Source of the DNA: Rhodospirillales bacterium
GTDB taxonomy: Bacteria > Pseudomonadota > Alphaproteobacteria > Rhodospirillales > Defluviicoccaceae
Assembly: GCA_025458035.1 (NCBI GenBank)
Contig: JALOTH010000005.1
Coordinates: 1-41,625 of the forward strand
Length of the DNA: 41,625 nt
Reading direction: 5' to 3'
The notes under the pieces were generated by a model. It had not been told where the DNA came from. It worked only from the letters and a program-made list of their open reading frames with translations, and ran no database searches. Position 1 is the stretch's first letter. Each line of letters begins with the position of its first letter. A program made the position numbers and the translations under genes. Below, one piece after another: positions 37,836-41,625 of the stretch.

Positions 37836-38510
37836 ATGATCGAAATCGTCGGGGTTCGCCATGCGTTCGGCGACATCGTTGCCCTCGACGGCGTCTCGGT
37901 GACCCTCGCCGAACGGCGGATCGCCGTCGTCGGCGCCAACGGCTCCGGCAAAAGCACGTTCGCGCGCCTGCTCAACGGCCTCGTCGTTCCCGATGCCGGG
38001 TCGGTGCGCGTCGACGGCCTCGACAGCCGCAGCGACGGCAGAGCCGTCCGCCGGCGGGTCGGCTTCGTCTTTCAGGATCCCGACAACCAGATCGTCATGC
38101 CGACGGTGGCGGAGGACATCGCCTTTGGCTTGAAGCCCTTGAAGCTGGGTCGCGAGGCGCTCGCCGCCCGGGTCGATACCATCCTCGTCCGCTTCGGGCT
38201 CGAACGCTATCGCGACCACTCCTCGTACCTGTTGAGCGCCGGCGAGAAGCAACTGCTCGCCATCTCGTCCGTTCTCGTCATCGAGCCGGCTCACATCGTG
38301 TTCGATGAGCCGACGACGCTGCTGGATCTGCGCAACAAGCGCCGGATCGCCGAGGTCATCCACGGCTTGCCACAGACGGCGATCGTCGTTTCCCATGACC
38401 TCGACCTGCTCCGCGACTTCGACCGTGTCCTCGTTTTCGATCACGGCCGGATCGTCGCCGACGACGAGCCGGCATCGGCGCTCGCCTTCTATGTCCGCTT
38501 GATGAGTTGA
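37836..38510 (+). CDS. bioM: Biotin ECF transporter ATPase
   Basis: A 224-aa ABC ATPase of the energy-coupling-factor type. Walker A is GANGSGKST (residues 33-41), the Q-loop segment [20 protein letters not shown] (79-98) is diagnostic for ECF/cobalt-type ATPases, the signature is the variant LSAGEKQ (133-139), Walker B is HIVFDEPT (153-160) and the H-loop is VVSHDLDLL. It powers biotin uptake with BioN and BioY at the inner membrane; the single ATPase would act as a homodimer. It is the first gene of the cluster. No clear Shine-Dalgarno precedes the ATG, and no BioR-type palindrome (TTATMKATAA) was found upstream. Confidence 0.92.
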
Positions 38511-38515
38511 CGGCG

Positions 38516-39127
38516 ATGACACTGGGGCTTTACGTCGCCGGAAACTCCGCGCTGCACCGCCTTCCGGCGCCGCACAAGCTCCTCGCGCTCTTCCTCGTCA
38601 GTATCGTCGTCCTCGCCATCGACAGCTGGCCGGCGCTCGCCGTTCTGATGCTGGCGACGGCAGGCCTGTTTCCGGCCGCCGGGTTGCCATGGCGCGCCGC
38701 CGCCGGACAACTGCGGCTGCCACTGCTGTTCCTGCTCATCATCGGCATCGCCCATGGCCTGCTGACCTCATGGACCCTCGGCGCCGTCATCGCGCTGCGT
38801 TTTGGCATCCTCATCGCCCTCGCCACCCTCATCGCCTTGACGACGCGGGTCAGCGACATGCTCGCGGCGTTCGAGCGCGGGCTTCAGCCGCTTCGCCGGC
38901 TCGGCCTCGATCCCGAGCGGATCGCCTTCGTGCTGGCATTGACGATCCGGCTGATCCCCATCCTTGCCGCCCACGCCACGGTGATCCGCGAGGCGCAGCG
39001 GGCGCGCGGCCTTGACCGCTCGCTCGTCGCCCTCGTGGTGCCGCTGCTGATCCGTGGCCTGCGCTCCGCCGACGCGTTGACCGAGGCGATCGAGGCCCGC
39101 GGCGGCATCGGCGCGGCGCGACGGTGA
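38516..39127 (+). CDS. bioN: Biotin ECF transporter transmembrane (T) protein
   Basis: A 203-aa membrane protein with about five hydrophobic segments and the two EcfT coupling-helix motifs, both with ARG: EAQRARGLDRSL and EAIEARGGIG. It is short for an EcfT, as BioN proteins are. The ATG at 38516 is 6 nt after the bioM stop; a TTG at 38507 overlapping that stop (TTGA) would add three residues and is an equally possible, coupled start. It links BioM to the substrate protein BioY. Confidence 0.92.
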   Translation: MTLGLYVAGNSALHRLPAPHKLLALFLVSIVVLAIDSWPALAVLMLATAGLFPAAGLPWRAAAGQLRLPLLFLLIIGIAHGLLTSWTLGAVIALRFGILIALATLIALTTRVSDMLAAFERGLQPLRRLGLDPERIAFVLALTIRLIPILAAHATVIREAQRARGLDRSLVALVVPLLIRGLRSADALTEAIEARGGIGAARR

Positions 39128-39770: not shown

Positions 39771-41256
39771 GCGGTTTGCCGCCGAGGCGTGGACCGCTCC
39801 CCATCGCCCGGCCCTGGTCGTCGACGGGCGAACCCTGCACTATGGAGCGCTCTACGCCCGGGTTCGCCAGGCGGCAGCAAGACTGCATGCGGACACCGTA
39901 ACCCCGCGCCGCATCGCCTTGCTGCTGCCGAACGGCAGCCCGTTCGTCGTGCTGCTGCTGGGAACGATGATGGCGGGCTGTGTCCCGGTGGTCCTCGATC
40001 CGCAGTGGAGCCCATCCGAACTGCAAGCGGCACTCGACGCCGTCGCCCCCTACCGCGTGTTTGCCGCGCCGGAGCAGGCGGCGCGGTTGCAGGACGCCGC
40101 CAACGTCGTCGTTCTCGGCAACGAATCGACGGACAGCTGGCAGTCCTGGATCGCCGGCCCCGCAGCGCGCGCCGACATCCGGATGGCGGATACGGCGCCG
40201 CTGTTCATCGGCTTCACGTCGGGAACCGCCGGCCGGCCGAAGCCGTTCCAGCGCAGCCACGCGTCGTGGCTCGCCAGCATCGACGCGGCGCGCCATGAGT
40301 TTGGCGCGGCGGCGGAGGGCGTGCTGATCCCGGGTCCCCTCGCCTACTCGCTGTCGCTCTATGCCTTGCTGGAAACCCTGGTCTCCGGCGGCACCGCGAC
40401 CCTGATGTCCGGCTTCCGGGCCGCCGACGCCGTGGCGCTGCTCGCCGGCGGCGGCATCCGCCGTGTCCATGGCGTGCCGACGATCTTTTCGGCGATCGTC
40501 GAGGCGGCCGACAGCGATCGGCTGACGTTTCCGACGGTGTCCACCGTTCTGTGCACCGGCGCGTCGCTGTCGCCGCAACTGCGCGACGATTTGCGCCGGG
40601 TGTTCCCGGCGGCGGCGGTCCATGCCTATTACGGCGCCTCTGAACTCAGTTTCGTCGCGGTCACCAAGGACGGCGAGACGTGGCCGGCCACCGCCGCCGG
40701 CCGGCCGTTCCGCGGCGTTACGGTATCGATCCGCCGGGCCGACGGCGAGGAAACCGCCCCGGAGGAGGTGGGCTGTCTGTACGTCCGCAGCCCGTTCGTT
40801 TGCGATGGCCACCTGCACCCGGATGACGACACCGGCTTTCGGCTCGCGGGCGGATGGGCGACCGTCGGCGATCTCGCCTTTCGCGACGAAGACGGGTTCA
40901 TTCATCTCACCGGGCGCCATGGACGGATGCTCATTTCCGGCGGCCAGAACCTTTATCCGGCGGAGGTCGAGGCCGTCCTCAAGCGACTGCCGGCGGTCGC
41001 CGACGCGGTCGTCCTCGCCGTGCCCGACGCCTACTGGGGTGAGCGCGTCATCGCCGTGATTCGCTGGCGCGGCGATGACCGGCTGAGCCGGGACGGCCTT
41101 CGCACCGCCTGCCGCGAGCAGCTGGCGCCATGGAAATGTCCGCAGCGGTTTTTCGTCGCCACCGAATGGCCATGCACCAGCAGCGGCAAGGTCGCCCTGA
41201 ACCGCCTGCAGCAGCTGCTGCGGTCGATACCGCCGGTGTATACGGAGATCGTGTGA
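39757..41256 (+). CDS. AMP-forming acyl-CoA ligase, YhfT-like
   Basis: A 499-aa adenylate-forming enzyme. The phosphate-binding A3 loop is FIGFTSGTAGRPKPFQRSH, A5 is HAYYGASELSFV, A7 contains GWATVGDLAFRDEDGFIHLTG, A8 GRMLISGGQNLYPAEVE, and the catalytic A10 lysine lies in TSSGKVALNRL. The set is complete, so it should activate a carboxylic acid as the acyl-AMP and transfer it to CoA; the substrate is unknown. The ATG at 39757 overlaps the bioY end and has AGGG 6 nt upstream. The order bioY, ligase, thiolase is the one in Bacillus subtilis yhfU-yhfT-yhfS, hence the YhfT-like call. It could be a pimelate or medium-chain ligase tied to biotin, but that is inference. Confidence 0.85.
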   Translation: MPVHERFAAEAWTAPHRPALVVDGRTLHYGALYARVRQAAARLHADTVTPRRIALLLPNGSPFVVLLLGTMMAGCVPVVLDPQWSPSELQAALDAVAPYRVFAAPEQAARLQDAANVVVLGNESTDSWQSWIAGPAARADIRMADTAPLFIGFTSGTAGRPKPFQRSHASWLASIDAARHEFGAAAEGVLIPGPLAYSLSLYALLETLVSGGTATLMSGFRAADAVALLAGGGIRRVHGVPTIFSAIVEAADSDRLTFPTVSTVLCTGASLSPQLRDDLRRVFPAAAVHAYYGASELSFVAVTKDGETWPATAAGRPFRGVTVSIRRADGEETAPEEVGCLYVRSPFVCDGHLHPDDDTGFRLAGGWATVGDLAFRDEDGFIHLTGRHGRMLISGGQNLYPAEVEAVLKRLPAVADAVVLAVPDAYWGERVIAVIRWRGDDRLSRDGLRTACREQLAPWKCPQRFFVATEWPCTSSGKVALNRLQQLLRSIPPVYTEIV

Positions 41257-41625
41257 ACGCCGGCGACGCGATCGTCATCGCCGCCCGGCGCACGGCGGTT
41301 GGCCGCGCCGGCGGCCGCCTCGCTCACCGCGATGTCGCCGCCCTCGCCGCCCCGGTGCTGAACGCCCTGCTCAGCGACGCCGGCGTCGACGCGGCGGCGG
41401 TCGACGAGGTGATCCTGGGCAACGCCGCCGGTCCGGGCGGCAATCCCGCCCGCCTGTCCCTGCTGGCCGCCGGACTGCCGGTGACGGTGCCCGGCGTCAC
41501 CGTCGATCGGCAATGCGGCTCGGGTCTCGAAGCCATCCATCTCGGCGCGCGGCTGATCCAGTCGGGCGCCGCCGAAATCGTCATCGCCGGCGGCACCGAG
41601 AGCGTCAGCACCGCCCCGTGGCGGG
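41253..41625 (+). CDS. Thiolase / acetyl-CoA acetyltransferase, YhfS-like, 3' end cut off
   Basis: The first 124 codons are present; the gene runs off the right edge. It begins with a GTG at 41253 that overlaps the ligase stop (GTGA), giving MNAGDAIVIAARRTAVGRAG. The thiolase active-site cysteine is C88 in VDRQCGSGLEAIH, and VIAGGTESVSTAPW follows, as in acetyl-CoA acetyltransferases. Thiolases condense or cleave 3-oxoacyl-CoA. Strict coupling to the acyl-CoA ligase suggests the two act in sequence on one acyl chain. The catalytic histidine and second cysteine lie beyond the window. Confidence 0.9.
   Translation, partial: MNAGDAIVIAARRTAVGRAGGRLAHRDVAALAAPVLNALLSDAGVDAAAVDEVILGNAAGPGGNPARLSLLAAGLPVTVPGVTVDRQCGSGLEAIHLGARLIQSGAAEIVIAGGTESVSTAPWR

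Follow-up and report, generated by a model that had tools for sequence, protein, structure and literature searches.

A YhfT-type ligase and a YhfS-type thiolase homologue beside the biotin importer genes bioMNY in alphaproteobacteria

A set of biotin importer genes lies at the right end of a contig from a Rhodospirillales bacterium of the Defluviicoccaceae (JALOTH010000005.1, assembly GCA_025458035.1), together with two genes for acyl-group enzymes that are the subject of this report. The window analysed here is that entire contig (41,625 nucleotides; G000:C189), and the host genome (G000) is alphaproteobacterial, 3.1 Mb in size and 96% complete. Open reading frames and the sequence itself place five plus-strand genes head to tail at 37836-41625 (Table 1). 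The first three have the arrangement of an energy-coupling factor (ECF) transporter, a BioY substrate-binding component with adjacent ATPase and transmembrane components on the same strand, and BioMNY is predicted on this basis to be a biotin importer. The bioM product shares 62-65% identity with the ATPases of Azospirillum bioMNY, and the window bioY is the single BioY match in the host genome. The last two genes encode an adenylate-forming acyl-coenzyme A (acyl-CoA) ligase related to YhfT and a thiolase homologue related to YhfS, and these two are referred to below as the pair.

Table 1. Genes of the bioMNY-ligase-thiolase row in the window
Gene or product	Position	Strand	Supporting matches and remarks
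bioM, ATPase (A) component of ECF biotin transporter	37836..38510	+	PF00005 ABC_tran; best NCBIfam model TIGR04520 ECF_ATPase_1, below cut-off
bioN, transmembrane (T) component	38516..39127	+	PF02361 CbiQ, 71.5 bits, above cut-off
bioY, substrate-binding (S) component	39213..39770	+	PF02632 BioY, 135.3 bits, cut-off 25
YhfT-type adenylate-forming acyl-CoA ligase	39757..41256	+	PF00501 AMP-binding and PF13193 AMP-binding_C; PRK07638, 345.7 bits
YhfS-type thiolase homologue, 5' part (124 codons)	41253..41625	+	Thiolase_N; GTG start; cut by contig end

The initial annotation, made from the sequence alone, had placed these five genes in one row, and open reading frames and domain matches confirm this. 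It had also described overlapping stop and start codons, which are present at two junctions, from bioY to the ligase (14 shared bases) and from the ligase to the thiolase (GTGA, 4 bases shared by stop and start); bioN and bioY are 85 bases apart. The ligase is complete, as had been stated. The thiolase is incomplete in the window, and its remainder lies at the end of contig G000:C22, where a 41-base exact overlap joins the two parts into a full-length protein of 392 amino acids. The thiolase appears to be the last gene of the operon because the next genes on C22, judged by eye, read as a convergent rhamnose-synthesis pair. Two start codons have alternatives: a TTG at 38507 for bioN, which would overlap bioM, and a TTG at 39751 in place of the ATG of the ligase.

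The company kept by the pair was surveyed in 289 genomes sampled from the class, in which BioY was found in 117, BioB in 100 and both in 17. The survey covered 125 of the 133 BioY places (120 fetched stretches, the window, L027, L029, L030 and L031); the places left out were seven in BioB genomes and one inside another stretch, and some neighbours are unseen where stretches at contig ends are short. BioM was matched at more than 100 bits in 14 of the 125 places. The pair adjoins 7/14 of these BioM-carrying places (the window, G061, G105, G032, G178, G275 and G164) and 0/111 of the others (Fisher p 4e-8). The suggestion in the initial annotation of a conserved function tied to biotin is borne out by these counts. 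A ligase match without a thiolase near eight further BioY places was taken as chance. At E 1e-85, the ligase model matched six of the 289 class genomes, and beyond the host four of the five have BioMNY and the thiolase adjacent; this search missed the pair-bearing G032 and G164, so its counts are lower bounds. G268 was rejected as a candidate: it matched the ligase model, and neither a BioY match in the genome nor such a thiolase or BioY within 16 kb was found. In a phylum sample of 398 genomes, the ligase model gave three matches, the host and two new genomes, G538 and G375, which belong to the same class as the host. In both, BioY lies directly upstream, BioN and the thiolase are neighbours as well, and BioB was not matched.

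Plasmid records extend this picture. The ligase matched 118 records (109 from Rhizobium) and the thiolase of G178 matched 30, and sixteen stretches were opened. The comparison of gene neighbourhoods proposed in the initial annotation shows the pair recurring beside BioY on Azospirillum, Microvirga, Sinorhizobium and Rhodobacterales replicons. The order of the genes varies. The pair lies behind bioMNY in the window, Azospirillum, Microvirga and Paracoccus SMMA_5, before it in Salipiger, and convergent with it in G164, Alloyangia, Aestuarium, Thioclava and Pseudosulfitobacter; in G275 and G178, BioY comes first in the locus. The constant core is the ligase and the thiolase, and nitroreductase-like partners recur. 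In G275 (L029:5879-7981) and G178 (L031:6749-8902), a nitroreductase-like part and the ligase form one open reading frame of 700 and 717 amino acids, respectively, with a PF00881 match of 103 bits in the former and a nitroreductase part judged by eye in the latter. A separate nitroreductase is present in Pseudosulfitobacter (PF00881, 86 bits) and, by annotation, in other Rhodobacterales, where eight stretches carry BioY, ligase, thiolase and nitroreductase in several orders. Among the Rhodobacterales, Paracoccus yeei has BioY without M and N, and the fourth gene in Aestuarium is annotated as 'oxidoreductase'.

Other partners differ between lineages. In two Azospirillum stretches, bioMNY, ligase and thiolase are followed by a major facilitator superfamily transporter (L034:9592-10827 and L033:9621-10870; PF05977/PF07690 matches in L034 only). 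A MaoC-like open reading frame follows bioMNY, ligase and thiolase in Microvirga, and a MaoC partner was matched by Pfam in L036. Sinorhizobium meliloti Ak57 carries bioMNY, ligase, thiolase, a thioesterase and an alcohol-dehydrogenase-like gene (zinc-binding dehydrogenase). The Ak57 ligase, between bioY and the thiolase (L168:5450-7000), is unannotated and reads in two frames, from either a real break or a sequencing error. Three Rhizobium plasmid stretches have the order thioesterase-ligase-thiolase. A 3-hydroxybutyryl-CoA dehydrogenase is the partner in G010 and, by eye, in G009, and crotonase-like and short-chain-dehydrogenase-like (SDR-like) open reading frames were seen by eye in L030.

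The ligase was best matched by PRK07638 out of 103 NCBIfam models, with the next model at 246.7 bits. It falls below the curated PRK07638 cut-off of 518, and full relatives of the thiolase in G006 and G009 (PRK06690, 400.7 and 392.9 bits) do not reach the cut-off of 498. The proteins of the window are therefore named YhfT-type and YhfS-type relatives and not equivalogs. One of 14 control genomes, that of Bacillus subtilis, matched PRK07638, and it did so above the cut-off. The ligase should make acyl-CoA, to judge from its motifs, since both the P-loop (TSGTAGRPK) and the C-terminal lysine (in SSGK) of adenylate-forming enzymes are intact. In a phylogenetic tree, 25 YhfT-type ligases are split from six generic ligases at a support of 100/99. 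This tree was built without the long and probably mis-framed rows L012, L014 and L016, with which an earlier tree gave no single group; L007, in which no frame passed the motif filter, and the two-frame Ak57 ligase were also left out. The ligases of Rhodobacterales and G164 are short (367-410 amino acids). A ligase scan of genome contigs returned distant ligases only (26-34% identity), and a scan of viral contigs found no match. The host genome as a whole has 13 ligase matches at E 1e-3.

The active site of the thiolase homologue is unusual. The piece in the window was best matched by PRK06690 (127.7 bits, next model 113.9), a model with matches in 4/14 control genomes, including B. subtilis, and above its cut-off in one of the four. 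In the G006 and G009 thiolases, the general thiolase model TIGR01930 and PRK06690 lead together, and other specific models score 59-69 bits behind PRK06690. Decarboxylating condensing enzymes are not known to require a base like Cys378 (Zoogloea numbering), and thiolysis uses this residue as the Claisen step does. In thiolases, Cys378 is the base of the Claisen step, and Asn316 and His348 form the oxyanion hole, Asn316 helping to form it for the enolate (excerpts of PMC3406046). The window piece carries the equivalent of the nucleophile Cys89 (DRQCGSG), and the completed host protein reads FNEAFAAQ, GHPFGASG and VLGVGGGMG, so that Cys89, Asn316 and His348 equivalents are kept and glycine stands at the Cys378 position. 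The same loss was seen in every protein read: the cysteine of the CxG motif is replaced by glycine or alanine in 28/28 YhfS-type proteins, all of which retain the nucleophilic cysteine and the GHP motif. These 28 comprise 25 full proteins that were aligned, one of them from Staphylococcus aureus, plus the completed host protein and those of G538 and G375. The glycine form is found in Rhizobium, Sinorhizobium, Azospirillum, G032, G061, the host's family and S. aureus, and the alanine form in Rhodobacterales, Microvirga, G105, G164, G178, G275, G538 and G375. Methionine replaces the Asn316 equivalent in 14 alanine-form proteins; that motif is unread in G375.

The ordinary thiolases that could be read keep the residue. 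Fourteen generic thiolase loci were examined, 13 of them in G061 and G275 and the other in G184; a clean frame was obtained for nine, and Cys378 was present in 9/9. G184 had matched the thiolase model and was rejected as a YhfS-type protein because it retains Cys378. In a tree of clean rows, 26 YhfS-type proteins stand opposite nine generic thiolases with a branch support of 100/100. The misread rows L175, L185 and L187, with which earlier trees gave no single group, were left out along with L171 and L176 (no clean frame), and L198 was added. At E 1e-15, the host yielded no thiolase other than the split YhfS-type protein, and an ordinary beta-oxidation cycle is thus unlikely there, with the caution that the genome is 96% complete. 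Because the Claisen base is missing in 28/28 proteins, YhfS probably acts either in acyl transfer or as a decarboxylating enzyme. It should form an acyl-cysteine, while condensation of acetyl-CoA and thiolysis would be expected to run poorly without a base at position 378. The remaining candidate chemistries are acyl transfer, hydrolysis and decarboxylative condensation, the last being less likely in the form without Asn316. With Cys378 gone from all members read, the default annotation of these proteins as thiolases no longer holds.

The genomes that carry the pair share a further property. BioB was found in 0/12 of the pair-bearing genomes (G000, G006, G009, G010, G061, G105, G178, G275, G032, G164, G538 and G375). 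In the host, it was not found by TIGR00433 either, and BioD was not found. The E. coli BioD probe found no BioD in G000, G006, G009, G010, G061, G105, G178 and G275; this probe is weak, and the five prototrophs of the host's family, in which it did find BioD, gave values of 1e-12 to 1e-14. Among the 11 genomes of this family, BioY occurs without BioB in G000, G001, G006, G009 and G010, BioB occurs without BioY in G002-G005 and G007, and G008 (79% complete) has neither. At E 1e-60, the YhfT-type ligase was found only in G000, G006, G009 and G010, followed each time by the thiolase. It is thus present in 4/5 genomes with BioY and without BioB, against 0/5 with BioB and without BioY (p 0.048), even across contigs. 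Rhizobium CIAT652, a plasmid of which carries the pair, has been described as a biotin auxotroph (PMC8914248). Biotin protein ligase (TIGR00121) was found in 16/16 genomes tested, 10 of them pair-bearing. A replacement of this enzyme by the pair is rejected on this count.

The locus probably holds a step of biotin metabolism that has no assignment yet. We tentatively favour the reading that the locus is a biotin-acquisition module of biotin auxotrophs in which the pair handles or salvages biotin, or a relative of it, in times of scarcity, although we hold it at somewhat less than an even chance. In an E. coli reporter strain, BirA together with biotin repressed the yhfS-yhfT promoter of S. aureus (excerpts of PMC6391492), so these genes would be expressed when biotin is scarce. 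The handling of biotin or a vitamer is favoured because of this repression and because the pair keeps company with the importer in hosts without BioB. We infer substrate, acceptor, direction and purpose as follows. BioMNY would bring in biotin or a closely related compound. The substrate of the YhfT-type ligase would be a carboxylic acid, biotin itself or a vitamer with an altered side chain being the most likely ones, and the products its acyl-AMP and acyl-CoA. The YhfS-type protein, aided by the histidine of the GHP motif, would take the acyl group onto its Cys89 equivalent and pass it to an acceptor; candidates are carrier proteins, other thiols and malonyl groups. In some lineages, help may come from a flavoprotein of the nitroreductase type, from a thioesterase, or from a MaoC-like dehydratase or an alcohol-dehydrogenase-like reductase. 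The net effect would be usable biotin made from vitamers, or biotin held in the cell, under scarcity. A narrower proposal is more doubtful: YhfT and YhfS would be a vitamin-salvage pair in which the ligase activates a biotin that is damaged or has been shortened, and a thiolase-fold enzyme without Claisen chemistry on acetyl-CoA transfers the resulting acyl group or extends it by malonyl units, allowing auxotrophs to rebuild biotin from breakdown products in their environment. With BioMNY beside the pair in genomes that lack BioB, attention shifts from the synthesis of biotin to its salvage or sparing, and the fused and partner nitroreductases point at the missing chemistry, for which Azospirillum and Sinorhizobium offer culturable hosts.

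Several observations weigh against a biotin-acquisition module. All 7/7 pair-bearing genomes of the class sample lack BioB, and so do 100/117 BioY genomes (p 0.59, a value that counted the 17 genomes with both BioY and BioB, only 11 of which had a place surveyed); because most BioY genomes have no BioB anyway, the 7/7 is not significant alone. The initial annotation had pointed to rare linkage to bioY as a possible objection, and here the result is divided. Linkage was seen only at BioM-carrying places of the survey, and it is not frequent: the pair adjoins BioY in 7/100 class genomes with BioY and without BioB, and 93/100 show none there, so the pair is not needed for using biotin. In the host's family, G001 (88% complete) has BioY without BioB and no such ligase at E 1e-60, and in G006, G009 and G010 the pair is at a distance from BioY, on a different contig (the pair contig of G006 is only 4.1 kb). 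No BioY was seen within about 7 kb of the pair on the three opened Rhizobium plasmids. B. subtilis has BioB together with matches to both models, and the runner-up model for the ligase is that of a long-chain fatty-acid ligase. Finally, TTATMKATAA, which we take to be the BioR motif, was not found with up to two mismatches at 37687-37836 or before bioY. The motif is consistent with probes quoted in PMC4554459.

Could the pair instead spare biotin? Acetyl-CoA carboxylase would fail when biotin is short, and the ligase together with YhfS as a transacylase from acyl-CoA to a carrier protein would then feed imported fatty acids to lipids. Control of the genes by BirA in S. aureus and B. subtilis (PMC6391492, PMC11089781; excerpts) would fit this explanation, as would the fatty-acid ligases among the relatives of the ligase and the loss of the Claisen base, which suits a transacylase. 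The genes vraA/vraB/vraC, probably including the S. aureus pair, have also been called fatty-acid metabolism genes (excerpts of PMC11730646). The pair, however, adjoins BioMNY and not genes for fatty-acid uptake or lipids, and the nitroreductase partners would be left unexplained. We consider sparing unlikely and rank it behind the handling of biotin or a vitamer, with chain lengthening in third place as a somewhat less likely account again. There, a bisnorbiotin-like vitamer would be activated, extended by two carbons by a malonyl-using, decarboxylating YhfS and then reduced by fatty-acid synthesis, comparable to the use of glutaryl-CoA by BioZ (excerpts of PMC7645780). The initial annotation had proposed that an acyl group is shortened or extended; this is weakened, as far as ordinary thiolase chemistry goes, by the missing Cys378. 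Decarboxylative extension may apply to the host form, which has Cys89, Asn316 and His348 equivalents, since such chemistry is not known to need a base of the Cys378 kind. Reductases, dehydratases or thioesterases are partners in some loci (G010, G009, L030, L036 and S. meliloti), but these partner enzymes vary between loci, and 14 proteins also lack the oxyanion-hole residue Asn316.

Degradation of the side chain of biotin by beta-oxidation, whether to gain carbon or to dispose of an excess, would account for a ligase and a thiolase homologue next to oxidation-type enzymes in some loci. It is very improbable: the residue used in thiolysis is missing in every YhfS-type protein read, the host has no other thiolase at the threshold given above, and both an importer operon in an auxotroph and an S. 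aureus promoter active in scarcity speak against such waste. Synthesis of a pimelate precursor for biotin, a role suggested in the initial annotation, draws on the presence of BioB and both model matches in B. subtilis. This role is contradicted for the present hosts because pimelate would have no use without BioB; neither BioB nor BioD was found in eight pair-bearing genomes, nor BioB in G032, G164, G538 and G375. With BioB in none of the 12, pimelate synthesis is unlikely in them, and we give this explanation even less credence than side-chain breakdown. The least credible explanation is that generic fatty-acid genes came to lie behind bioMNY by chance. The broad resemblance of both proteins to large families would agree with it, and the initial annotation had allowed that the two enzymes might prove closest to generic fatty-acid enzymes. 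Both are split from their generic relatives in the trees, the loss of Cys378 is common to the YhfS-type proteins, the pair recurs in several orders and arrangements, and chance is rejected on the adjacency counts.

The surroundings of the operon in the window are as follows. A divergent aspartate transaminase gene (36494-37687; 584 bits to PRK06107, cut-off 617) lies 148 bases upstream of bioM, and a long minus-strand open reading frame at 34329-36359 resembles, by eye, an elongation-factor-G-type GTPase. A promoter scan found none. Across the whole window, the BioR-like motif with up to two mismatches occurs 11 times against 3.6 expected, a count reached in 0/100 shuffles, and none of the copies is upstream of bioM or bioY.

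The tie of yhfTS to biotin in Bacillota is already known. In B. subtilis, the gene order is presumably yhfU(bioY)-yhfT-yhfS. The initial annotation had drawn a comparison with this operon, and its enzyme families match those of the window. The S. aureus pair (L167:5623-8752) is probably vraA/vraB. It adjoins vraX, with two small downstream open reading frames without a Pfam match, and BioY is not nearby in the stretch. A palindrome resembling a BirA box, with one mismatch, lies at L167:5578-5604, 18 bases before the ligase start. The other of the two BirA-box patterns scanned did not mark this place, and the scan that did mark it was not above chance overall (8 matches against 10.2 expected). 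The family models, and weakly the palindrome, suggest that the pair is the BirA-controlled yhfS-yhfT operon. The vraX cluster has been described (excerpts of PMC10620731 and PMC11730646), the adaptive role of vraA being said to need investigation (PMC11730646), and the BirA-controlled yhfS-yhfT genes are termed only putative fatty-acid enzymes in the excerpted literature. In papers on bioMNY, term counts gave no 'thiolase' in PMC4554459 and no 'acyl-CoA' in PMC8914248. In the literature searched, with most subscription journals outside its coverage, no paper was found on the function of yhfT or yhfS or on a ligase, thiolase and nitroreductase with BioY, and no earlier description of the missing Cys378, of the nitroreductase partners or of the pair's occurrence with BioMNY where BioB is not found.

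The yhfU-yhfT-yhfS genes of B. subtilis and yhfS-yhfT of S. aureus encode the same two enzyme families as the locus described here, and the S. aureus YhfS-type protein likewise lacks Cys378. Unlike in these systems, the full bioMNY set precedes the pair in the window, the host yielded no BioB, and no BioR-type site was seen. The biosynthetic thiolases of Zoogloea and Clostridium and the 3-oxoadipyl-CoA thiolase share the fold family, the nucleophilic cysteine and the NEAF and GHP motifs with YhfS-type proteins, in which their CxG base motif has become GxG or AxG. BioZ, a 3-ketoacyl-acyl-carrier-protein synthase III of biotin synthesis in alphaproteobacteria, is comparable in concept, being an enzyme of the condensing type that takes an acyl-CoA and is dedicated to biotin (PMC7645780). 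However, BioZ is FabH-like and serves biotin synthesis, whereas YhfS-type proteins are relatives of thiolases in hosts where BioB was not found. The BioMNY transporters of rhizobia and Paracoccus have all three components encoded in one operon, as is the case here.

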